A stretch of DNA of 64,000 bases from Hydnum rufescens UP504 (lineage: Eukaryota; Basidiomycota; Agaricomycetes; Cantharellales; Hydnaceae), in assembly GCA_014904985.1 (NCBI GenBank), contig MU129116.1:1-64000 (forward strand), given 5' to 3'. Below, one piece after another: positions 4,694-50,206 of this stretch. The notes under the pieces are model-generated. The model made no database searches, was not told where the DNA came from, and saw only the letters and a program-made list of their open reading frames with translations. Each line of letters starts with the position of its first letter. Within the stretch, counting starts at the first letter, position 1. A program made the position numbers and the translations under genes.

Positions 4694-5760
4694 TGTTGGA
4701 GGGATAAATCCCTACACCATAGAATCCTCATCCTTGGCCCATTTTCCCTATGAACGAATCAATTATATGTCACTGCGCTCATTTAATTATATCGCCATTC
4801 GTTTATTCATGAAATCAATTGGATTCCTACCCTTTCCAACCCATAATATTGCCTCATTCCTTTACCATGTCCACCAGTCAATTTATTGACTATCTGCCAG
4901 ACTTCAACAGTCCTCATCAAAAAGGGGCAGTTTATGCCCTACTTCAAGTCCATTTTCTTTGGACAAGGCAATTCAACTTGCCATCTTTCTTCAAGACTGG
5001 GTGACTTGCCTGCTCTTCCAAGTCATCCTACTGCCTTAAGGGCGACAGATTGTGATTATGTAATGATGTGGACAGGGCCTAGTTCCAATTCTGGACTTGT
5101 GGATTCGTCACATGATCCAGGTAGGGGCTGCACTACTCTGAAGGAGTATTTTTCGAATTTCTCTGTCATTTTTGATCGGATCGACTCAAAACGACCGCTC
5201 CCAGAAAGATACGAATCATACCTATCGAACGGTACCAAACATGAAACAAACAGATCAAAAGTGCGGTCCCTGTAACAATATCTTGCCATGATTCATACTC
5301 TAAAGGAGTATTTCTTGATTTTCGAAGCCAATTCTTATCTGATTCGTTCGTGAGTACCACGCCCTGAAAGCTGTTAAAAATGCGCATCGAACGGTACTAA
5401 GGGCAAAACGAGCGGACGCGAACTCCATTTTTCACAAGACAACTCCCTCCCCATGACTCCCCCTTTGCTCCACCATTCAAAATAGTGAATTACTTCTGGC
5501 CCTCTTATGTCTGATGGAGAAGACCCTCAGGGAGACCTATTCCACTTTTCCTTAAGGGAACTTGTCCAGGTTTGAAGGAGAAATAGCATGTAATGTGTCA
5601 ATCTCCCCTTTTATCTTGAAATTGGAATATCTCCATCGGTTTTGAAGATTTTAACTTTATTTCTTTTTCTTTGTGTGTCCCTTAAGTCCGACTTTTTCAC
5701 TTTCTATTGAGTCGAAGTCTGGATTGTATATTAGGTGCAGCTAGCACACAAATTCATTAG
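4694..5760 (+). repeat. LTR-like repeat (family shared with 33000-33690 and 35220-35511)
   Basis: Starts TGTTGGAGGGATAAATCCC and is present again at 11118-12180. Its first about 400 bases are found inverted at 35511-35265 and its later part inverted at 33690-33000, each as diverged copies. Inside, a module ending CGCATCGAACGGTACYAA occurs twice. The TG start and dispersed copies fit a long terminal repeat, but I could not fix the 3' end or a target duplication. The right boundary given is only where I stop recognising homology. Confidence 0.5.
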
Positions 5761-6129
5761 TTCTCCCCCTCCCTCCAGTTTGAAGCTCCTTGAACAGCTG
5801 CTGGTCCCTGGGTGATTTCTCACTACAAAAAGCGAATTCTAACTACACTTTGACTAAGGTCTCAAGAAGAGATTCTTAGGGTGTGGTAATTTGACTGAAA
5901 GACACATTCTCACTTAATTGCTTGGGCTTTGTTGGCTCACTGCAATTTCCCCTGTTCAAAAGACCTTCCCCCACTCGAACCTGAACATCCGGATTAGATC
6001 TGTGATCCCCTCTTTCGTCCCTGGCTCAACATCGTGGACAGTAGTTGGATTGGTTTAATAACCATCCTGCTTACACCAGAGAAGGGAGAAGAACTGTCCC
6101 TCAACAAGTAGTCTCATAACCAGACCCTG

Positions 6130-7267
6130 TTATGAGAGGTGTCCAGTTTAGGTTGTCCTCAGTCCTGGTCTTCACATTGTGTCGACAAGCTCAGATCGTT
6201 ACTCAGTATGGGTTATTCCGGTGCTCTCAGCAAGCACACCACTCTCATCTGGTGCTGCCTCCAGAGGTGGTGGCAGTGGCGGTCGATCCAATAGCCCCCA
6301 AGCAGATGCAGCTGTCCCAGCTCGGCCACCCTCAATGTCCCAACGCAAGTCACTCAAAGACATGTTTGCACCTAGGGAAGAAGGTGCATGCTCAACCCTC
6401 CATTTTCAACTATTTATGTTGCATGCAGCCCTCAACTCATTTTCTTCCACACAGCTGGATGTTCATTATTCAGGACTCTCGCTGTGAGTGGTGTTGAAAT
6501 TGGGCTCAACCAAGAGGAAGAGGAAGACATTTACCCAATAGCAACTACAACTATCAACCAGACTTTGGTGGTGGCAGCAGTAGCACCAATCACAGCGGCC
6601 CCTGCCCCTGTATTCCGCAATGAAGTGGTACTATTTGACTGTTCAAGCCCTATGTTTTTCCCGATTCTGCCCTCAGACCATAACACGAGTTTGTGAGATG
6701 CCAAGTCGAATTGTACATGCGCTATCTTGATGTGGATCCATGCGAATGAACGCATACTGTGAACAAGGAGAAATCCAACATCCAGGCACTCCAAGATAAG
6801 CTGGATGCCATCAACTGTGAGCATGGTGATGCCTACATCAATGGGATTCAACCTGTCTTCAAGCCTCTTAAGGCTTGCCATTTTGATCCTCTTGGAACTG
6901 GGTTTGACAGGATGCCCTCATCATGTGGTACGATATCTTGCATGGCTGTATCTCTACTGTTGATTGCAGGATCACTGACAAGTCTCTCTTGGAGTACATG
7001 CAGTACTATGTTGACTGTTGCAATCCTGGTCATGGAGAAACATACCAGCTGGGCAAAGAATTCAGCCAACAACTCATTAACAACTGCCAGGAGGCTCTTG
7101 GAGAGCCTCCATTGTACAAAGACAGTGCATGCAATTTATTGTTATGGGTGAATAAAACTAACACTGCACGTGGTTTCAGTGATGTTCCCTATCGCTCCTC
7201 ACATGGAAGTGACACCTGCCAGGCTGGTCAGACACTTCCATTGATCTCAAAAGGCATGTCATTTTGA
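6130..7267 (+). pseudogene. unrecognised broken coding region, copy 1
   Basis: Open stretches in changing frames: a Ser/Gly/Pro-rich part (6179-6487), an acidic part beginning about 6500 (NQEEEEDIYPIATTTINQ), a stretch with MRYLDVDPCE then a stop then THTVNKEKSNIQALQ, and 6923-7267 (MWYDILHGCISTVDC, QYYVDCCNPGHGE). The second copy at 12550-13680 has the same pieces with different one-base indels, so some breaks are copy-specific. I recognise no family. It sits downstream of an LTR-like repeat, so it may be transposon cargo. Confidence 0.35.
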
Positions 7268-7269
7268 TA

Positions 7270-7745
7270 TTTGTATAGGACCTAATAGGCCTGTGTTCTC
7301 TTTGATATCAAATATTGATCAAAATGGGCCTTTATATCAAACAAGTGCAGTTTGACATAGTTTTGACATCAATTTGAGATCAAAGTGGGGACTTGGAACT
7401 TTTACTTGTAGAACTCTGCAATACCACTGGCTGACCTGTCAATTGCCTAATATCCTAAATAGGAAATTATGTAATGCACCCAAAAAAGCAGTGACATAAT
7501 TGTGCACAACAATAATATTACATAATATTAAATTACATAATTAGTTGATGATATAATTAAATATATTATATAATACCTATTACCTAATATACATATTACC
7601 TAATTGATTACATAATCCAGGTTGCATTACTACACCAGTGCTGACAAGAGGGGGCACCCCTGCCCCAGACCAACTCAAGGGGTGGGGGAGGGGGTAGAGG
7701 GGCCACCAGGGGGACAGGGGCCCCTGGGTGTACACTTAGGGGGAT
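7270..7745. repeat. AT-rich and GC-rich low-complexity tract
   Basis: 7270-7400 has repeated TTTGAGATCAAA-like words, as also seen at 30060-30190. 7450-7640 is built from ATTACATAAT/ATTACCTAAT words. 7650-7745 is G/C-rich with runs of G. No gene seen. Repeated at 13690-14160. Confidence 0.5.
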
Positions 7746-7746
7746 C

Positions 7747-7890
7747 CTATAATGGGGGGACAATGGGTTAGTTCAAAAAATCAATAGTAGTGCAAAAAGG
7801 GCAGCCAGAGGCTGCCCTTTTTGTACTAGAGTAGCTAAAGTTACAATAACATACCTTAACACCACACCCCAGTCTATACTGGGGTGTGGT
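7747..7890 (-). repeat. hairpin-bearing intron (7747-7854) plus adjoining exon palindrome, unit 1
   Basis: Read on the minus strand: palindrome ACCACACCCCAGT/ACTGGGGTGTGGT (7861-7873 with 7878-7890, 13 bp perfect), 6 nt, donor GTATGT at 7854, hairpin with 18-bp arms at 7789-7806 and 7810-7827 (one G.U pair), branch-like AACTAAC, acceptor ATTATAG at 7747. Length 108 nt. The same plan recurs at 10088, 10411, 10649, 14160 and 50095. Splice signals are consensus, but no intact reading frame joins the flanks. It is a predicted intron, not a proven one. Confidence 0.6.
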
Positions 7891-8059
7891 GGCTTGTCCT
7901 GGGCTCTTGGTGGATGGAGGTGGTGTGGTGTCGCGCAACAGAAAAAAATTGCTGGCAATTGCCAGTAAATTGAACCCGGGACTCAACACCGGCAGTTGCC
8001 CAGTTTCAAAGGCAAGCCACCTGCTGCTATGAAAAAGCCTAAATGCAGTAACCAGATAG

Positions 8060-8500
8060 ACCAATATAAAAGGGTGCATTAGATAATATTCTGTAATAAC
8101 TTTGGATAATATCCCATTACATAATACAGTGATTCCCATTAAAAAAAGCCTAAATGCAGAAATTGGATGAAGTACATCCAAATAAGTGCTAAGCAGATCA
8201 TTCTGAAATTTGGTGCATGATTAGAGACTACTTCTATGCAAATCATACTAAAATTTCAGCCAGATCCATTCATTAATTACAGAGCTATAAGGACAATAAG
8301 TTTAAATATTGAAAATAAATTTACTCCCCCCACAGACAAGGTATGGACTTGAAATTTGACATGGGGTATGACCACATAATTAACTAAACATGTGCCAAGA
8401 ATCAGCTTATTCTGTTTGCTTCTAGGTATTCAACTCCCAGTTCAGGCAAAAAAAGAACAAAAGCTACCATGAATGTTAAACAGTTTAAAATAGATGTGAA
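8060..8500. repeat. dispersed noncoding repeat shared with 63260-64000
   Basis: Blocks such as AAAAAAGCCTAAATGC, GAAATTGGATGAAGTACATCC, ATTCTGAAATTTGG and AAAATTTCAGCC occur in the same order at 63300-63640, and again in part at 63850-64000. Also present in the duplicated copy at 14470-14900. No coding potential seen. Confidence 0.6.
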
Positions 8501-8700
8501 CTGGGTGGAATAGGCTTATAATATTATAACCCTGACTATATCTGAAAATGGAATCAATTGGATGTGTGGAAGTGGCTGAAATTGAGGGGGAGGGGAAGAA
8601 AGATCAAAAGTCCATTACATAAGATGTAGAGCAGGGGTGGCTCTGATATTACATCACTGAGTTAATACATATGTGGGGAGTGCACATGACAGATATCAGC

Positions 8701-9727
8701 CCAACTGGACTCCATTTAGGGAGTGCTCCACAGGCCTCCCCCCTAAACAACAATTTCCTCCCCAGAGCCTTCCATCCATCCAATTGCCTTGAAAATGCAC
8801 ACTTAGGTCATCCAAACACATCTATAACATCCCTCAAACTTTCAAATTCATGGCTCCAGTGCCAGAGTCTCCATAATATTTTCAAGTTTCACTGAAATAC
8901 ACCCTCCAGTTGGGACACTTCCAAAGCTCCAATCACTCTGATTTTTTGTAGGCCACACCTGCTCACCATTTGAGCCTCAGCCCCCAAATTTCAGCCCATT
9001 CTGAGGACTTTTGATATCTGTCACATGACCAAGATCTTTCCCTCCCCCTGCTTCACTCAGTCCTCTAGTTCATATGGACTTTGTTGCCATCTGGAGTAGT
9101 AGCATGTGACAGTGTATGATTCAAATTTCAAGATATTCCATGCAATATTCATGGAGTTATTCAAGAAACATTCTAGATCAATTCAATTTGGGGGTCAGAA
9201 CAGCAGTATTTCCACTAAATACTGCTGTTCTGACCCCCAAATTGAATTGATCTAGAATGTTTCTTGAATAACTCCATGAATATTGCATGGAATATCTTGA
9301 AATTTGAATCATACACTGTCACACACTACTACTCCAGATGGCAACAAAGTCCATATGAACTAGAGGACTGAGTGAAGCAGGGGGAGGGGAAGATCTTGGT
9401 CATGTGACAGATATCAAAAGTCCTCAGAATGGGCTGAAATTTGGGGGCTGAGGCTCAAATGGTGAGCAGGTGTGGCCTACAAAAAATCAGAGTGATTGGA
9501 GCTTTGGAAGTGTCCCAACTGGAGGGTGTATTTCAGTGAAACTTGAAAATATTATGGAGACTCTGGCACTGGAGCCATGAATTTGAAAGTTTGAGGGATG
9601 TTATAGATGTGTTTGGATGACCTAAGTGTGCATTTTCAAGGGAATTGCATGGATGGAAGGCTCTGGGGGGGAAATTGTTGTTTAGGGGGGAGGCCTGTGG
9701 AGCACTCCCTAAATGGAGTCCAGTTGG
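8701..9727. repeat. foldback palindrome, 511-bp arms, 5-nt loop
   Basis: 8701-9211 and 9217-9727 are inverted copies of each other with very few mismatches and a loop of CCACT. The outer edges read CCAACTGGACTCC and its complement. Either a foldback/MITE-like element or an inverted duplication fixed at a hairpin. No ORF of note inside. The duplicated copy (15091-15832) has lost the outer half of its right arm. Confidence 0.85.
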
Positions 9728-9869
9728 CAGCCCTGGCTATAAGATTATAGGCTAAAAACCCATGAAGCTCCTGTGATAATTCATGCTATCCCAGGGATAG
9801 CATATGATTACTAATATTCAAATACTATTATTATTATTATTATTATTGATTTATTTATTATACACATAC

Positions 9870-9995
9870 ATCTGGTGAGCCAATGGCTCACCAGTACCAC
9901 ACAAAGAGCAGCCAGAGCAGCTCCTTCTGTGCGACTGTATCTAATACAATAAAAAAGACCTTTCACTAACACACCCACCGCAGCGGGTGTCATTC
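9870..9995 (-). repeat. degenerate hairpin-intron unit
   Basis: A GGTGAGCC/GGCTCACC-type palindrome at 9872-9894, a damaged hairpin with GAGCAGC and GCAGCTC words (9905-9935), and an exon palindrome ACACCC/GGGTGT (9971-9990) sit in the same order as the better units. The donor is GTCTTT (9959), a poor one, and the acceptor is not clear. Confidence 0.4.
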
Positions 9996-10087
9996 CTGTG
10001 TTACTCGCCCGCCATTTGTCAGGTCATCGCTCACCGGGGTTTCATTTACCGGGATGTCATTCGCTGGGTTTGGGGATGGGGGCTGGG

Positions 10088-10191
10088 CTACGATAAACAA
10101 TACATTAGTTACAAGTCAAAGCAGCACAAAAAGAGCAGCCATGGCTGCTCCTTTTATGCTGCTGTAATGTATAGAAACTCAAAAAACATAC
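10088..10191 (-). repeat. hairpin-bearing intron, unit 3
   Basis: Minus strand: donor GTATGT at 10191, hairpin arms 10143-10163 and 10120-10140 (21 bp, two mismatches), branch TAACTAAT (10102-10111), acceptor ATCGTAG at 10088. Length 104 nt. The preceding exon ends with a CCCAC/GTGGG palindrome at about 10203-10224. The exon that follows (10087-9960) consists of a degenerate 15-bp repeat of the type AATGANAYCCCGGT, which codes for five-residue repeats such as NDIPV, NETPV. Confidence 0.6.
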
Positions 10192-10410
10192 CTTAAATGA
10201 ACACACCCACCCCAGTGGGTGTGGTTCATATGTCTGTCGTTGGCTGGGGTTCCACTTGGGGGAACCCCATTCTGCGGTTTCATTCAGGGGGTTTGGCTTG
10301 TGGGCCTTCGTTCGGCAGTTTTGGGATCGCGGGGCTTCGCTCAGTGGGTTTGGGATCGTGTGCGGTCATGGGGTTTGGGGTTGTGGTTCATGCAGGTTCA
10401 AGTCCCAGAT

Positions 10411-10538
10411 CTAGAAAAATAAAGATGTTAGTTAAATATTAAAGCATCACAAGAAGAGCAGCTTACGCTGCTCTTCTTGTGCCACAAAAAAAAATACTCA
10501 TCTTGTAGTACCACACCCGCTGCCATGGGTGTGGTACT
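10411..10538 (-). repeat. hairpin-bearing intron with mutated donor, unit 4
   Basis: Minus strand: exon palindrome AGTACCACACCC/GGGTGTGGTACT (10507-10518, 10527-10538, 12 bp perfect). A donor at 10501 now reads ATGAGT instead of GTGAGT. The 15-bp perfect hairpin is at 10448-10462/10467-10481 with a 4-nt loop. The branch is TTTAACTAAC and the acceptor TTTTTCTAG at 10411. The hairpin has a G-C pair where other units have A-T. Confidence 0.6.
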
Positions 10539-10648
10539 TTATTTTGCACTGTGGCAAACAGGCTCTTGGGTGCCTGTTTGTACTGCTGCTCAGGTTTTGA
10601 TACCTGGGGTTGCAGGGGTCATTATTCGCTCAGGTGAAAGGCAAAGAC

Positions 10649-10797
10649 CTAAATAGAAAAACAAGTTAGTTAAGTGAAGGCAGCACAAAAAGAGCAGATT
10701 TTGCTGCTCTTTTTGCACAGCCATATCTACCAGGGGGGACTCACCTTAGGAATACTACCACACACCTGCCGCAGCGGGTGTGTAGCAAAGTGCCTCC
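10649..10797 (-). repeat. hairpin-bearing intron plus exon palindrome, unit 5
   Basis: Minus strand: ACACACC/GGTGTGT-type exon palindrome (10764-10790), donor GTGAGT at 10744, 12-bp hairpin at 10686-10697/10704-10715, branch TTAACTAAC, acceptor CTATTTAG at 10649. Intron length 96 nt. Upstream (11031-10745, minus) lies an open stretch of 96 codons ending at the donor, rich in Pro/Leu, with no recognised domain. It may be the first exon of the array. Confidence 0.6.
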
Positions 10798-11089: not shown

Positions 11090-14000
11090 CTCAATCTTGA
11101 GTTCGTATCCGCCCTGGTGTTGGAGGGATAAATCCCTACACCATAGAATCCTCATCCTTGGCCCATTTTCCCTATGAACGAATCAATTATATGTCACTGC
11201 GCTCATTTAATTATATCGCCATTCGTTTATTCATGAAATCAATTGGATTCCTACCCTTTCCAACCCATAATATTGCCTCATTCCTTTACCATGTCCACCA
11301 GGTCAATTTATTGACTATCTGCCAGACTTCAACAGTCCTCATCAAAAGGGGCAGTTTATGCCCTACTTCAAGTCCATTTTCTTTGGACAAGGCAATTCAA
11401 CTTGCCATCTTTCTTCAAGACTGGGTGACTTGCCTGCTCTTCCAAGTCATCCTACTGCCTTAAGGGCGACAGATTGTGATTATGTAATGATGTGGACGGG
11501 GCCTAGTTCCAATTCTGGACTTGTGGATTCGTCACATGATCCAGGTAGGGGCTGCACTACTCTGAAGGAGTATTTTTCGAATTTCTCTGTCATTTTTGAT
11601 CGGATCGACTCAAAACGACCGCTCCCAGAAAGATACGAATCATACCTATCGAACGGTACCAAACATGAAACAAACAGATCAAAAGTGCGGTCCCTGTAAC
11701 AATATCTTGCCATGATTCATACTCTAAAGGAGTATTTCTTGATTTTCGAAGCCAATTCTTATCTGATTCGTTCGTGAGTACCACGCCCTGAAAGCTGTTA
11801 AAAATGCGCATCGAACGGTACCAAGGCAAAACGAGCGGACGCGAACTCCATTTTTCACAAGACAACTCCCTCCCATGACCCCCCTTTGCTCCACCATTCA
11901 AAATAGTGAATTACTTCTGGCCCTCTTATGTCCGATGGAGAAGACCCTCAGGGAGACCTATCCACTTTTCCTTAAGGGAACTTGTCCAGGTTTGAAGGAG
12001 AAATAGCATGTAATGTGTCAATCTCCCCTTTTATCTTGAAATTGGAAATCTCTCATCGGTTTTGAAGATTTTAACTTTATTCTTTTTCTTGTGTGTCCCT
12101 TAAGTCCGACTTTTTCACTTTCTATTGAGTCGAAGTCTGGATTGTATATTAGGTGCAGCTAGCACACAAATTCATTAGTCTCCCCCTCCCTCCAGTTTGA
12201 AGCTCCTTGAACAGCTGCTGGTCCCTGGGTGATTTCTCACTACAAAAAAGCGAATTCTAACTACACTTTGACTAAGGTCTCAAGAAGAGATTCTTAGGTG
12301 TGGTATTTGACTGAAAGACACATTCTCACTTAATTGCTTGGGCTTTGTTGGCTCACTGCAATTCCCCTGTTCAAAAGACCTTCCCCCACTCGAACCTGAA
12401 CATCCGGATTAGATCTGTGATCCCCTCTTTCGTCCCCGGCTCAACATCGTGGACAGTAGTTGGATTGGTTAATAACCATCCTGCTTACACCGGAGAAGGG
12501 AGAAGAACTGTCCTCAACAAGTAGTCTCATAACCAGACCCTGTTATGAGAGGTGTCCAGTTTAGGTTGTCCTCAGTCCTGGTCTTCACATTGTGTCGACA
12601 AGCTCAGATCGTTACTCAGTATGGTTATTCCGGTGCTCTCAGCAAGCACACCACTCTCATCTGGTGCTGCCTCCAGAGGTGGTGGGCAGTGGCGGTCGAT
12701 CAATAGCCCCCAAGCAGATGCAGCTGTCCCAGCTCGGCCACCCCTCAATGTCCCAACGCAAGTCACTCAAAGACATGTTTGCACCTAGGAAGAAGGTGGC
12801 ATGCTCAACCCTCCATTTTCAACTATTTATGTTGCATGCAGCCCTCAACTCATTTTCTTCCCACACAGCTGGATGTTCATTATTCAGGACTCTCGCTGTG
12901 AGTGGTGGTTGAAATTGGGCTCAACCAAGAGGAAGAGGAAGACATTTACCCAATAGCAACTACAACTATCAACCAGAACTTTGGTGGTGGCAGCAGTAGC
13001 ACAATCACAGCGGCCCTGCCCCTGTATTCCACAATGAAGGTGTACTATTTGACTGTTCAAGCCCCTATGTTTTTCCCGATTCTGCCCTCAGACCATAACA
13101 CGAGTTTGTGAGATGCCAAGTCGAATTGTACATGCGCTATCTCGATGTGGATCCATGCGAATGACGCATACTGTGAACAAGAGAAAATCCAACATCCAGG
13201 CACTCCAAGATAAGCTGGATGCCATCAAACCGTGAGCATGGTGATGCCTACATCAATGGGATTCAACCTGTCTTCAAGCCTCTTAAGGCTTGCCCATTTT
13301 GATCCTCTTGGAACTGGGTTTTGACAGGATGCCCTCATCATGTGGTACGATATCTGCATGGCTGTATCTCTACTGTTGATTGCAGATCACTGACAGTCTC
13401 TCTTGGAGTACATGCAGTACTATGTTGACTGTTGCAATCCTGGTCATGGAGAAACATACCAAGCTGGCAAAGAATTCAGCAACAAAACTCATTAACAACC
13501 TGCCAGGAGGCTCTTGGAGAGCCTCCATTGTACAAAGACAGTGCATGCAATTTATTTTATGGGTGAATAAAACTAACACTGCATGTGGTTTCAGTGATGT
13601 TTCCCTATCGCTCCTCAACATGGAAGTGACACCTGCCAGGCTGGTCAGACACTTCCATTGATCTCAAAAGGCATGTCATTTGATGTTTGTATAGGACCTA
13701 ATAGGCCTGTGTTCTCTTTTGATATCAAATATTGATCAAAATGGGCCTTTATTTATCAAACAAGTGCAGTTTGACATAGTTTTGACATCAATTTGAGATC
13801 AAAGTGGGGACTTGGAACTTTTACTTGTAGAACTCTGCAATACCACTGGCTGACCTGTCAATTGCCTAATATCCTAAATAGGAAATTATGTAATGCACCC
13901 AAAAAGCAGTGACATAATTGTGCACACAATAATATTACATAATATTAAATTACATAATTAGTTGATGATATAATAAATATATTATATAATACCTATTACC

Positions 14001-15832
14001 TAATATACATATTACCTAATTGATTACATAATCCAGGTTGCATTACTACACCAGTGCTGACAAGAGGGGCACCCCTGCCCCAGACCAACTCAAGGGTGGG
14101 GGAGGGTAGAGGGGCCACCAGGGGGGACAGGGGCCCCTGGGTGTACACTTAAGGGGATCCTATAATGGGGGGACAATGGTTAGTTCAAAAAATCAATAGT
14201 AGTGCAAAAAGGCAGCCAGAGGCTGCCTTTCATACTAGAGTAGCTAAAGTTAAATAACATACCTTAAACCACACCCCAGTCTATACTGGGGTGTGGTGGC
14301 TTGTCCTGGGTCTTGGTGGATGGAGTGTGTGGTGTCGCGCAACAGAAAAAAATTCTTGGCAATTGCCAGTAAATTGAACCCGGACTCACACCGGCAGTTG
14401 CCCAGTTTCAAAGGCAAGCCACCTGCTGCTATGAAAAGCCTAAATGCATAAACCAGATAGACCAATATAAAAGGGTGCATTAGATAATATCTGTAATAAC
14501 TTTGGATAATATCCCATTACATAATACAAGTGATTCCATTAAAAAAGCCTAAATGCAGAAATTGGATGAGTACATTCAAATAAGTGCTAAGCAGATCATC
14601 TGAAATTTGGTGCATGATTAGAAGACTACTTCTATGCAAATCATACTAAAATTTCAGCCAGATCCATTCATTAATTACAGAGCTATAAGGACAATGAGTT
14701 TAAATATTGAAAATAATTTACTCCCCACAGACAAGTATGGACTTGAAATTTGACATGGGGTATGACCACATAATAACTAAACATGTGCCAAGAATCAGCT
14801 TATTCTGTTTGCTTCTAGGTATTCAACTCCCAGTTCAGCAAAAAAAAACAAAAGCTACCATGAATGTTAAACAGTTTAAAATAGATGTGAACTGGGTGGA
14901 AATAGGCTTATAATATTATAACCCTGACTATATCTGAAAATGGAATCAATTGGATGTGTGGAAGTGCTGAAATTGAGGGGAGGGGAAGAAAGATCAAAAG
15001 TCCATTACATAAGATGTAGAGCAGGGGTGGCTCTGATATTACATCACTGAGTTAATACATATGTGGGGAGTGCACATGACAGATATCAGCCCAACTGGAC
15101 TCCATTTAGGGATGCTCCACAGCCTCCCCCCTAAACAACAATTCCTCCCAGAGCTTCCATCCATCCAATTGCCTTGAAAATGCACACTTAGGTCATCCAA
15201 ACACATCTATAACATCCCTCAAACTTCAAATTCATGGCTCCAGTGCAGAGTCTCCATAATATTTTCAAGTTTCACTGAAATACACCCTCCAGTTGGGACA
15301 CTTCCAAAGCTCCAATCACTCTGATTTTTTGTAGGCCACACCTGCTCACCATTTGAGCCTCAGCCCCCAAATTTCAGCCCATTCTGAGGACTTTTGATAT
15401 CTGTCACATGACCAAGATCTTTCCCTCCCCTGCTTCACTCAGTCCTCTAGTTCATATGGACTTTGTTGCCATCTGGAGTAGTAGCATGTGACAGTGTATG
15501 ATTCAAATTCAAGATATTCCATGCAATATTCATGGAGTTATTCAAGAAACATTCTAGATCAATTCAATTTGGGGGTCAGAACAGCAGTATTTCACTAAAT
15601 ACTGCTGTTCTGACCCCCAAATTGAATTGATCTAGAATGTTTCTTGAATAACTCCATGAATATTGCATGGAATATCTTGAAATTTGAATCATACACTGTC
15701 ACACCTACTACTCCAGATGGCAAACAAAGTCCATATGAACTAGAGGACTGAGTGAAGCAGGGGGAGGGGAAGATCTTGGTCATGTGACAGATTCAAAAGT
15801 CCTCAGAATGGGCTGAAATTTGGGGCTGAGGA
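11090..15832 (+). repeat. 4.8-kb direct duplication, copy 2
   Basis: Second copy of 4665-9456, containing the LTR-like repeat (from 11118), the broken coding region (12550-13680), the AT-rich tract, a hairpin intron (14160-14262), the dispersed repeat (14470-14900) and a truncated foldback (15091-15832). It carries many one-base indels relative to copy 1. It ends exactly where the inverted LINE copy begins. Confidence 0.85.
14160..14262 (-). repeat. hairpin-bearing intron, duplicated copy of unit 1
   Basis: Same plan as 7747-7854: acceptor ATTATAG at 14160, hairpin GGCAGCC/GGCTGCC, donor GTATGT at 14262, exon palindrome ACCACACCCCAGT just beyond. One stem base pair is lost on both sides (GGGC to GGC) and the outer stem is damaged. 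Confidence 0.55.
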
Positions 15833-21974: not shown

Positions 21975-24900
21975 ATGTCCTCTACTACCACTTCCACCTC
22001 TTCTACCAATCTCCCTCTCCTCACCACTGCCAATTATTCCCTCTGGGCCCCTGCTATTGAGGATTACCTCAGGGCCAAGGGCATGTGGTACTGGATACAC
22101 ACCACTGTGCCTGATCCAGTCACAGATCTGAAGAATTGGCGCAAGTGTATGGAGGCTAGAGACCAGGCTGTGGGAGAAATTCGTCGTCACCTCTCTCCTG
22201 AGCTCAGGAGTGTGTCTCTCTCATCCACAGACCCTCAGGTGATTCTCACCACTATCAAGGACACCTATGGTGCCTCCACCTTTGCCACTCGGTACAATGC
22301 ATTACAGTCCCTCCTGGCTGTGAAGCAGGACTCCTCTGAGGCAGTGGCTGCCTTCATCTCTCGTGCTAGGGAAGCCCTGCGTTTCCTGCAGTCCACTCGT
22401 CCTCCTCCTCCAGTCTCTCCTCCCCATTGTGGCCAGTCCTGGTGGCACCTACTCCCTTGAGGACTCTGATAGGGAGCTCTTGATCTCTGTCCTCCTGAAT
22501 GGCACTCAGTACAGTGCTTTGACCACCTCCCTGCTTGCCCAATCCCACTTGACAGTGCAGCAGGTTGAGGATGCCCTCAAGAATGAGGAAGCCCATTGCC
22601 TGGGTGTCACTGCTGCTGCTGCTGCTGCCAATCCTGCTGCTTCTCCTGCTGCAGTTGCTCCAGCCTCCACCCTCTCTTGTGCCTTTTGTGGCAAAGGTGG
22701 ACATACTGTTGAGCGCTGCTTCAAGTTTAGAGATGCTAGCACCAAGGCCAAGGAAGAAGTCAAGGATTCATCCAAAAGGCAACGTCCTCGCAAGGGCAAA
22801 GCTAATACTGCCCAGGATGCTCAGACTCCTTCTGAGTCTGCAGGTGCTGCAAGTATTCGTCCTCCCTCCCTCTCCAGCTCCCTGCCTAACTCTTGGAATG
22901 CAGACACAGGGGCCACTTCTCATATGACTCCTCATAGAGAGTGGTTCAAGTCATATACCCCCTGCAATCTTCCAATTCGAGTTGCCAATGGCCAGGTTAT
23001 TTATGCAGCTGGAGTAGGTACTGTTGAGTTTTCTCCAGTTAGAGAAGGTCGTCTTTTGCGCTCTGTAATATTCTCTGGTGTCCTCCATGTCCCAGATCTG
23101 AATCAAAATCTCCTCTCAGTGTTGACTCTCACCTCTAAACATGCCTTTCGAGTTGTGATTGAGTCTGACACTCTTGAGTTTGTTAGAGATGGCATTCCTC
23201 GCTTCTATGCCTCAGTGGGAGCTGATAGAGTTGCCCTGTTGAGTGGGAGCACTGTAGTCCAGCCTCAGGTGGCTTCTCCAGCCCAGACAGCTGACTATCA
23301 TCTCTGGCATCGTCGTTTGGGCCACATCAGTGTGGGACGTCTTAAATCCTTGGTTGAGCACCATCTTGTTTCAGACCTGGTCCTCCCTACTGTTCCCTCT
23401 GTGGCCCCAGTCTGCCCTGCCTGCATGGATGGAAAGCAGACTAGACATCCCTTCCCCCAGACTGTGTCCTCCCGTCGCTCTCTCCCTCTTGAGCTGGTCC
23501 ACTCTGATCTCCATGGCCCTATCTCTGTGCCTACAGCTAATGGCTATCGGTACTGGATCACCTTCATTGATGATGCTTCCCGCTATCGACGAGTCTGGCT
23601 CCTCCATAAAAAGAGTGAAGCATTCTCTGCCTTCAAGCAGTTTAAATCTTGGGCAGAGAAACAGACTGGGAAGGCTCTCAAGGCTCTCAGGGATGACAAG
23701 GGTGGTGAGTACATGTCTAATCAGTGGGAGGCATTCATGCTTGAGCATGGGATTGAGAGACAGCACACCACTCGGGCTACCCCCCAACAGAATGGTGTTG
23801 CTGAGCGCACCAATCGCATTTTGGATGAAGGTGTTGCTTCTCTCCTCTCTGACTCCCATTTGCCCTCCAAGTTCTGGGGTGAAGCTCTCTCCTGTTTCCT
23901 GCACACTCTGAATCGCTCCCCCTCCTCTGCTGTCACTGGGAAGACTCCCTTTGAAGCCTTCTATGGTCAGAAACCCTCTGTCTCCCACCTGCGTGTCTTT
24001 GGGTGCAGGGCCTATGCCCATGTGCAAAAAGACAAGCGCACTTCCTTTCAGCCTAAGTCCAGGAAGTGCATATTCCTTGGATACCCTGTTGACTATAAGG
24101 GCTGGAAGTGCTGGGATCCTATGACCAATGAGGTATTCATCTCACGTGATGTGCACTTTGTGGAGACTGAGATGCCTGGGGCAAAACACTTTCCACATTA
24201 TCCAAAGTATGAGCCTCTGGCTGGAGTACAGCCAGGCTCAGTGGGAGAACCTGCTGGCACTCATCTTTCTCCTACATCATCTTCCCCCTCAGTGCCATCT
24301 GTTGAGCCTGTCAGCACTCCATCTGATGACTCTGACTCTGAATCTGGCTCTAGTGCTGATCCTGAGGACCCTCCTGATTTATCTTCATTTGCTCCTTCAC
24401 CTTCTCCTGCTCCTCCTGTCTCCTATTCTCCTGCTCCTGACCCTGTACCTTCTTCATCTTCCTCTTCTCCTGCTCCTGGACCTGTCCCTGATTCTGAAGC
24501 TACTGACTCTCCTGAACCTCCCTCTGGCTCCTCTGAGACTGGTCCTCCTGGTGCTTCTAAGCCTTATGTTACTCGTTCTGGGCGCTCTAGTCGTCCCATG
24601 CGTGAATGGTGGGTGGTCCCTCACCCCTATCAGCATGCCAAAGAAAAGAGGAACACTAGGCAAAGTGCAAGGACTCCAGAATCAACTCTTGAAGCTGACA
24701 TTGCTGCTCTGGAGTCTGCTAATGCTGGTAGAGCTCTCTCTCACTCAGAACTGATTGAGTATGCCTTCCTCACTTCTACCTCTGAGCCAAGGTCATACCA
24801 TGAAGCCATGACTAGAGATGATGCTCAGCTATGGCATGTGGCCACTGAACAAGAGTACAATGCACTCCAGGAACATGGGGCCTGGGAACTATGTGAGCTG

Positions 24901-26357
24901 CCTCCAGGGCGCAAGGCTATTGGTTCTAGATGGGTCTACAAGGTCAAGCTGAACTCTGATGGCTCAGTGGAGCGTTATAAGGCTCGGTTGGTGGCTAAAG
25001 GCTTCTCCCAGAAGCCCCACCTTGATTACACTGAGACCTTTGCCCCTGTTGCCAAGTTTGCTTCCTTACGGACTGTGCTGGCTATTGCTGCAGCTGAGGA
25101 CATGGAGATTGACCATATGGACATCTCCACTGCATTCTTGAATGGTGACTTGGATGAGGAGATCTACATGGCTCAGCCAGAAGGCTTTGCAGCCCCAGGT
25201 CAAGAACACCTTGTCTGTCACCTTAAGAAGTCCTTGTATGGACTTAAGCAGAGTCCAAGGCAGTGGTATATAAAGCTGCACTCTACCTTTGTGAAGTTTG
25301 GTTTTTCAAGATGTGCTTCTGACCACTGTGTCTGGATCTGGGCTAAAGACGGTGTGAAGGTCATCATTCCAGCCTATGTGGATGATTTGATCATTGCCTG
25401 TAAAAATGTCCCACTTCTAAAGCGCATTAAAGAGGAACTCAAGCTTGAGTACAAGGTCCGTGACTTAGGTCCGGTTGCGTACACTCTAGGGATTGAGATC
25501 ATCAGAGACCGGGCTAACCGGAGGTTGTATCTCTCCCAGAGGAAGCACATTGGTGATGTCCTGGACCGCTTCAATATGGCTGATGCCCGCCCTGTGTCTA
25601 CTCCTCTGGCCAAGTCAAGTCCATTGACTAAAGAAGACTGCCCTCAGACTCCTGAGGACTTGGAGTACATGAAGTCTGTTCCTTATCTCTCAGCTGTAGG
25701 CAGTCTGATGTACCTTTCAGTTGGTACACGTGCAGACATCAGCTTTGCAGTGGGAGCTCTAAGTAGGTTTAATGCAAACCCAGGACAGGCCATTGGAAAC
25801 AAGTTCAGCATGTCTTCAAGTACCTTGCTGGTACAAAGGACCTTATGCTTTGCTATGGTCCTGGACAAGACTCAACCTGCCTTCAGATTTATTCTGATGC
25901 AGACTATGCTGGGGATGTTGACTCAGCACGCTCTACTAGTGGGCATGCTGTCTTTATTGGCAAGTGCTTGGTAAACTGGAGCAGTAAGAGGCAATCTGTT
26001 GTAGCCAAGTCTACTACAGAAGCAGAGTACATTGCTGCCAATGAGGCTGGCTCTGATGGTGTCTGGTTTCGGAATTTCATGTCTGAACTAGGATATCCTC
26101 CAAGTGGTGCAACTACTTTGTGGCTTGACAATCAGTCAGCTATCAGAGTTGGGAAGAACCCAGAGCACCATAGCCGAATGCGGCATCTGCTGCCTAAATA
26201 CCATTGGCTTCGGGAACAGGTGGAGGACAAGGTATTTTCACTTGAATATGTTTCAACTTCTTTGATGAGGGCAGATGTTCTTACAAAGCCCCTTGAGACT
26301 GTAGCCCATTCACGAGTACTTTCACTTCTTGGGCTTGTTTCTCACTCTGCTTTGTAA
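21975..26357 (+). CDS. Copia-A gag-pol polyprotein, two frameshifts
   Basis: The likely start is the ATG at 21975 (MSSTTTSTSS), in good gag position; the frame is also open upstream without sense. Gag runs to about 22420, then shifts frame in a C/T-rich stretch (22400-22440). The second frame has the zinc knuckle CAFCGKGGHTVERC, protease DTGATSHMT, the HHCC integrase N-domain (HLWHRRLGH...CPAC) and the integrase core (HSDLHGP, FIDDASR, DDKGGEY, TPQQNGVAERTNR). It continues with RT (WVYKVKLNSDGSVERYKARLVA, YVDDLI) and breaks at 25790 where one C is missing relative to 18268. RNase H continues in frame 25845-26357 (SDADYAGD, DNQSAI) to the stop. A single base at each site decides whether this is a working element, so assembly error must be excluded first. 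Confidence 0.88.
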
Positions 26358-49090: not shown

Positions 49091-49694
49091 CAATCTTTTT
49101 GACAAGATCATCCATACTTGATTTAACAGGGATGGGTGCACCTTGGTCAGCCACTTGGGCTGACCTCAAAAGGAGTACCATTTGAGGTCATTTCACTGGC
49201 CTAAGGAGGACTGATTTTCTTTGATGTCAATTGACAATGATCAAATTGACCTTAAGAGAAATTCAACTTCAGCCAATATCAATACTACATGGAGGGGGAA
49301 CCACATGGGGGTAGTGGGAGGGGGTCTGGAAACCAGGGGAATGTGGGCCTTGGGGTCAGCAGGCAATCTCAACACGGACTTGTACAAATTAGGCCTTGTA
49401 TTCAATGGCCCCCAAGTTGCAGGTAAGTCTACCCATTCTTTGATTGTTTGCTGCCAACACATTAAACTCTGATTTTTCGGTCATGCTAGCTTTGATTTCC
49501 AGCCTGTGCAAGTCAGGATCGTATGGCCGACAGCATTGTGTAACACTTTTTTGTACCAGGCCATTTTTATCCTGACCTTGCTTGCACTCTTGAGCATCTT
49601 CATAGTACATAGGTAGATGTTGTGTTCAAGTCCCAGTGTCTGGATGGAATCAAGTACACAGCTTCGGTGTCAAGCTTCGGTGGTGGAAGGTAAG

Positions 49695-50051: not shown

Positions 50052-50206
50052 ATAGTACCACACATCTGCTGCAGTGGGTGTGTGGTACTATCTGGTGAGT
50101 TTCTCCTCAATGCCATGTACAATGGCACCAAAAGAGCAGCACCAGCTGCTCTTTTGGTGCTGCCTCTGTTTTATTTTTTTTACTAATGTATTATTCATTA
50201 TTGTAG
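50052..50206 (+). repeat. hairpin-bearing intron (50095-50206) plus exon palindrome, unit 6
   Basis: Plus-strand member of the family. Exon palindrome ATAGTACCACACA/TGTGTGGTACTAT (50052-50064, 50079-50091, 13 bp perfect), donor GTGAGT at 50095. The 16-bp perfect hairpin GCACCAAAAGAGCAGC (50125-50140, 50145-50160) has a 4-nt loop. Branch TTTACTAATG, acceptor TATTGTAG at 50206. The sequence before (49970-50094) and after (50207-50370) the intron is itself duplicated (CCACCYAAGACCCCATC, CAACCTA.ATGACAAATAAA), so exon plus intron looks like one repeating unit. Confidence 0.65.

Follow-up and report, generated by a model that had tools for sequence, protein, structure and literature searches.

Intron units of the array element

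The stretch analysed here, referred to as the window, comprises positions 1 to 64,000 of contig MU129116.1 of Hydnum rufescens UP504 (64,000 nucleotides, nt). It holds six intron-shaped units, each with a palindrome on the exon side, that belong to a dispersed DNA element, the array element, for which we propose below a place among Kyakuja-Dileera-Zisupton (KDZ)-type transposons. An earlier note had listed these units, and a script re-read all six at the same positions and strands (7747, 10088, 10411, 10649 and 14160 on minus; 50095 on plus; Table 1). Their shared plan is also confirmed: all have an exon palindrome, an internal hairpin, the sequence ACTAAY and a TAG acceptor, within lengths of 91-112 nt. 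The palindrome lies upstream of the donor in every unit, but at 5-10 nt rather than the 3-8 nt first given, and is imperfect and bulged in two of the six (the 10088 and 10649 units). A donor had been claimed for every unit, which does not hold for the 10411 unit; this reads AAG/ATGAGT at the boundary, with no GT. Moreover, a single stretch has been duplicated to give both the 7747 and the 14160 unit, so that the six represent five independent units, and a seventh, degenerate unit, beyond the earlier list, lies at about 9990-9893. The segmental duplication that accounts for the twin units has a spacing of ~6.4 kb and involves window positions 4694-6076 and 11118-12491, with 7335-8490 and 13754-14490. 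That the flanking exons differ is true within the window; genome-wide, however, runs of exon and intron recur in the same order, as in the array loci L025 and L012, which are 93.7% alike over 1.9 kb.

The genome searched amounts to 63.2 Mb in 539 contigs, the window being part of contig 208. The exact 15-mer GCACAAAAAGAGCAG has 652 + 697 occurrences in it and its reversed control none, a count that is far beyond chance. The hairpin core AGAGCAG-N4-8-CTGCTCT is found 5,012 times, against 4 for the reversed control; scans of viral and bacterial collections for the same core, made as background only, returned 4 and 106 stretches, the bacterial ones perhaps terminators. Twenty array loci of ~10 kb each were picked for the exact 15-mer, the remaining genome copies being known from counts alone. 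In these loci and the window, 255 candidates were picked up by a unit profile, and 235 of them could be parsed as introns; 200 of the 235 were kept for later measures, and the alignment used below consists of 70 of 139 non-redundant units. Among the parsed units the commonest donors are GTGAGT (76), GTAAGT (57) and GTATGT (22), a TAG acceptor is present in 194, and the median intron length is 104 nt. Of the 200 retained units, 166 have an exon stem that scores at least 9 at a distance of no more than 60 nt from the donor, compared with 2 of 200 shuffled ones; in 144 of these 166 units, 0-9 nt separate the end of the stem from the donor. A known RNA family as the origin of the units was rejected, as no Rfam match exceeded the gathering threshold in the window, L012, L019 or L025; L025 gave 23 weak matches, all below threshold, the best of them (41.6 of 90 bits) in its central inverted repeat. 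A tRNA origin was rejected too: ARAGORN made a single prediction in 10 loci (L013 4425-4521, plus strand), and it overlaps a minus-strand hairpin unit.

Table 1. Parts of array elements in the window
Feature	Position	Strand	Remarks
Element terminus	7220..7294	+	CAGGCTGGTCAGACA...; aligns with termini beside the KDZ genes of L032 and L034
Intron unit, 108 nt	7747..7854	-	GTATGT donor, hairpin, AACTAAC branch, TAG
Exon palindrome	7861..7890	-	upstream of the 7747-unit donor
Promoter-proximal motif region	7954..8000	-	GGCAACTGCCGG / GGCAATTGCC
Degenerate last unit of the 10.8 kb arm	9893..9990	-	palindrome and hairpin, no acceptor seen, then ATAATAATAA
Intron unit, 104 nt	10088..10191	-	
Exon palindrome, imperfect	10197..10229	-	of the 10088 unit
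Intron-like unit, 91 nt	10411..10501	-	lost donor
Exon palindrome	10508..10537	-	of the 10411 unit
Intron unit, 96 nt	10649..10744	-	GTGAGT ... TAACTAAC ... TAG
Exon palindrome, imperfect	10755..10785	-	of the 10649 unit
Element terminus	13637..13711	+	duplicate of the 7220 terminus
Intron unit, 103 nt	14160..14262	-	duplicate of the 7747 unit
Exon palindrome	14268..14297	-	duplicate of 7861-7890
Element terminus	49139..49213	+	CACCTTGGTCAGCCA...; left of the 50095 unit
Exon palindrome	50055..50088	+	of the 50095 unit
Intron unit, 112 nt	50095..50206	+	

Arms and coding content

In the 20 loci and the window the units fall into 64 runs, or arms, of 1-9 introns each. Among arms with at least two introns, the 18 divergent neighbouring pairs have gaps of 233-1114 bp; the 8 convergent ones, with gaps of 408-6459 bp, are what would be expected where two elements lie side by side. 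The element is built around a centre from which two arms, with as many as nine introns each, point outward, and by eye the centre of L025 contains a long inverted repeat. The motifs CAGCACTTGGGCGCTT and GGCAATTGCCGGCGTTGA, searched with 3 and 4 substitutions allowed, precede the first intron, 25-26 nt apart from start to start, in 24 of the 29 arms with at least four introns. In the L025 arm, the sole arm examined for tandem blocks, three adjacent exon-intron blocks of 251-257 nt are 86-93% alike, which indicates that arms can grow by tandem duplication of such blocks. Long CAG/CAA repeats stand before the first palindrome in some first exons of L013, L015 and L022.

Being multi-exon, with a promoter-like centre and an A+T-rich 3' end, the arms could be taken for a decayed protein-coding gene family whose spliced open reading frame has been lost, and PMC12730594 records KDZ elements that carry genes. 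The 171 internal exons, however, are without frame: their lengths leave remainders of 2, 1 and 0 in 61, 56 and 54 cases, so that 54 of 171 are multiples of 3. Moreover, when a coding signal was sought in the spliced arms with at least four introns, the sense reading frames were within the range of shuffles in all of them. Some antisense frames of the spliced arms exceed the shuffles, reaching 353 amino acids; the exons are T-poor, and it is to this that we ascribe the long antisense frames. Two complete array elements encode no KDZ transposase, their longest reading frames having 212 and 174 amino acids, and Pfam gave no match to five reading frames of complete elements, these two included. 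Descent from decayed genes is very unlikely in the light of these results, and a hidden coding gene was rejected on the lack of an exon frame and on sense reading frames no longer than those of shuffles. Judged from its sequence, the element appears to carry no protein gene, only outward RNA units built like intron-rich genes.

Element ends and KDZ transposases

Copies complete with both ends were found in L025 (2667-8203; CCCAAATC; 5,537 bp) and L010 (3211-8519; GGTTACCA; 5,309 bp). The termini of array elements are 5'-CA..TG-3'; most ends begin 5'-CASSYTGGTCAGYCA, one type being CAACTCAGTCAGCCA, and the subterminal design is ACCTAAGTTAGGTACC..GGTACCTAAGTAGG or has diverged from this. In the window, the orientation of the terminus at 7220 suggests that it is the left-hand end of the element to which the 7747 unit belongs. 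Facing end pairs within 8 kb number 19 among the 100 places listed, of which 16 combine end types a and b, 3 are b+b and none is a+a. Target-site duplications (TSDs) were sought in 21 elements, namely 18 of the 19 facing pairs (C6:403081-410186 was left out) together with L020, L025 and L010. Exact flanking direct repeats of 8 bp were present in six of these and of 7 bp in three (9 of 21 in total); 462 mismatched pairings, used as a control, gave no exact 7-mer and one case with at least 7 of 8 bases matching. Importantly, these TSDs bound the whole element, not the introns or the splice sites. Nested copies occur as well, one of them (C5:102535) inside an intron with TTACTGTT on both sides. 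At L031 (C27:52900-54600) there is a 1,017-bp element (362-1378) with two b-type ends and no TSD, the core of which is an inverted repeat of palindromes of the last-exon type; this suggests that short derivatives of the element also exist.

The position of the TSDs bears directly on the proposal of the earlier note that the units are introner-like elements, that is, hairpin introns each mobile by itself and creating introns in host genes. Part of that proposal stands, in that the units are intron-shaped, form a large family with a conserved stable hairpin within one genome and are carried by mobile DNA; DNA-transposon introners with TSDs are, moreover, described in PMC9860276. What is not supported is the independent mobility of each intron, since the TSDs and terminal motifs are at the ends of the whole element. 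The exons are themselves part of the repeat, recur with it and show no coding signal, and whole exon-intron blocks duplicate in tandem (in one arm, that of L025). Throughout the 20 loci and the window the units sit in arrays, or remnants of arrays, of one dispersed element with common exons, and neither the exon remainders nor the spliced arms, which have no long reading frame, point to coding flanks. The array element resembles introners in its many similar hairpin introns and its tie to DNA transposition, but differs in that the introns are internal, serial and set in exons with no coding signal instead of having been gained singly in host genes. That the introns in the loci inspected move one by one is, in our judgement, very unlikely.

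As to what may move the whole element, KDZ transposases are abundant in the genome: of 584 candidates 150 were scored, and these gave at least 154 matches. This abundance, like the presence of a Ty1/copia frame in the window, would suit an agaricomycete fungus. Each of the five KDZ loci examined has an inward-facing CAGGCTGGTC end at a distance of 1,604-1,874 bp beyond the KDZ domain. Given the density of this word in array loci, the chance of such an end within 2 kb is 7.4% per locus; for all five loci it is 2e-6, rising to 3e-5 when L032 and L034, which are nearly identical (97%), are taken as one. One of the five, L030, was picked because another terminus lay nearby. The ends at the KDZ loci align with array-element ends along ~75 nt and have a common terminal plan; those of L032 and L034 are similar to the terminus at position 7220 of the window. 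On these sequence comparisons the link to KDZ is far from chance. According to PMC12730594, Kyakuja elements have CA..TG ends and a 7-bp TSD, and Zisupton elements an 8-bp TSD. With CA..TG ends, TSDs and an end of the same design beside five of five KDZ genes, the array elements look like non-autonomous KDZ transposons, and a place among KDZ-type transposons is supported by their ends and TSDs. The likeness to non-autonomous KDZ elements includes the 7-8 bp length of the TSDs, the end design seen on the 3' side of KDZ genes in the same genome and a basidiomycete-like host; the unlikeness is in the interior, which here consists of two divergent multi-intron non-coding arms. We know of no description of such cargo in KDZ elements, and searches of an open-licence library, from which most subscription papers are absent, turned up no account of serial non-coding introns in KDZ elements or in other DNA transposons. 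Ds/dSpm-type elements are DNA transposons with spliceable sequence that splice themselves out of host genes; the array element likewise combines DNA transposition with putatively spliceable sequence, but brings its own exons instead of leaving host-gene transcripts.

Predicted splicing, stem pairing and a proposed mode of action

Between aligned copies, changes affect 40 of 571 donor GTs against 1,959 of 6,639 other GTs (4 times less often at the donor), and 43 of 476 acceptor AGs against 1,613 of 7,529 other AGs, although the units were chosen for splice-like motifs, which inflates this conservation, and the copies are related rather than independent, so that the figures are a guide and not a significance test. 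Mismatches amount to 8.5% in the intron hairpin versus 18.5% in the intron linkers, to 11.9% in the exon palindrome zone versus 20.3% in the exon linkers, and to 10.8% and 12.6% in the six donor bases and the branch site. The conservation of the donor GT suggests past selection for splicing. In the alignment of 70 units, 21 of 33 stem pairs have changed on both sides and 93.5% of the cells pair, values that none of 500 shuffles and none of the slid versions reached. The donor and the start of the intron hairpin are 28.5 nt apart (median), the end of the hairpin and the branch adenosine 21 nt. In 142 of the 172 units with a branch site the linkers around the hairpin sum to 42-85 nt, the range that PMC12350175 gives for the zipper stems of yeast introns. 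As in Saccharomyces, the stem is between donor and branch site; here, however, it is present in thousands of copies on a transposon, and the structure is predicted only.

Pairing of this kind could also be a property of the DNA, the palindromes serving as sites for the transposase or host proteins, or as cruciforms, with the resemblance to introns incidental. CpG decay in the exon linkers is strand-symmetric (803 to TG, 820 to CA), which is what methylated repeats would show, and among two-sided CpG pairs in both stems Watson-Crick pairs are above expectation while G-U is not favoured over A-C; taken together, these patterns mean that the palindromes could be kept at the DNA level. In the intron stem, G-U at first seemed to outnumber A-C by 103 to 20, but this result was discarded: it was due to a CpG context on one side only and to a G-U pair in the consensus. 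Palindromes also persist where the introns are gone, as at L031. Such an explanation fits poorly, however, with GT and AG being kept better at the inferred splice positions than elsewhere, with donor, branch site and acceptor lying on one strand in each arm and with divergent arms that point away from a common centre, and we regard it as unlikely.

We consider it likely, on the sequence evidence, that a non-autonomous KDZ-type DNA transposon contains two divergent transcription units, both non-coding, and that the intron units are spliceosomal introns arranged in series within them. The centre of the element would then act as a two-way polymerase II promoter, from which the arms would be transcribed outward and spliced. 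The intron hairpin may function as a zipper stem, folding out the middle of the intron and bringing donor and branch site together, and so aid splicing. The exon palindrome would be retained after splicing, giving each RNA a series of short hairpins joined by T-poor linkers, and the spliced product would be an RNA studded with them. Movement of the array element may depend on KDZ transposase supplied by other elements, and its arms would lengthen by tandem duplication of whole exon-intron units.

Several observations weigh against this reading, in addition to the choice and relatedness of the aligned units and the CpG pattern in the stems. The 10411 unit has lost its GT donor, and CTRAY is absent from 28 of the 200 retained units; structure prediction leaves the donor largely unpaired in no more than 13 of 60 units. 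Twelve of the 21 end pairs have no exact TSD, one of them matching at 6 of 7 bp. A stricter terminus motif has 315 + 316 occurrences in the genome, against 0 for its control, but it also fits some KDZ-type ends, so that the 631 matches are not all array elements. Finally, searches that assumed an 8-bp TSD did not locate the 5' (far) end of the KDZ elements: three of four were empty, and the fourth gave a single match, on another contig.

As a first guess, the spliceable RNA would help the element to spread or to escape silencing; that RNA arms are present in elements whose ends are of different types (a/b and c/d) suggests that the arms help the element. A more far-reaching version is possible but doubtful: the whole payload might be a pair of spliced, hairpin-studded non-coding RNAs needed for spread, as an RNA cofactor of the KDZ transposase or as a decoy for host silencing, with the splicing of each intron driven by its zipper hairpin. 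If the arms are transcribed and spliced, some five thousand structured introns would serve the non-coding RNA of a transposon and not host genes, and the array element would represent a kind of DNA transposon with complex non-coding cargo under selection. It would also offer a natural library of thousands of variants in which to study the effects of hairpins on splicing, and would be a plausible source of ready-made introns when elements land in genes.

The window also holds other repeats. A separate fold-back element at 8700-9700 adjoins the arm remnant; by eye its arms measure ~450-500 bp around 9200-9240, and one side ends ...CCAGTTGGACTCCATTTAGGGAGTGC. A Ty1/copia frame is at 22324-25971, and the terminus at 49139 seems, by eye, to be inside a stretch on the minus strand that resembles a copia gag zinc-knuckle.

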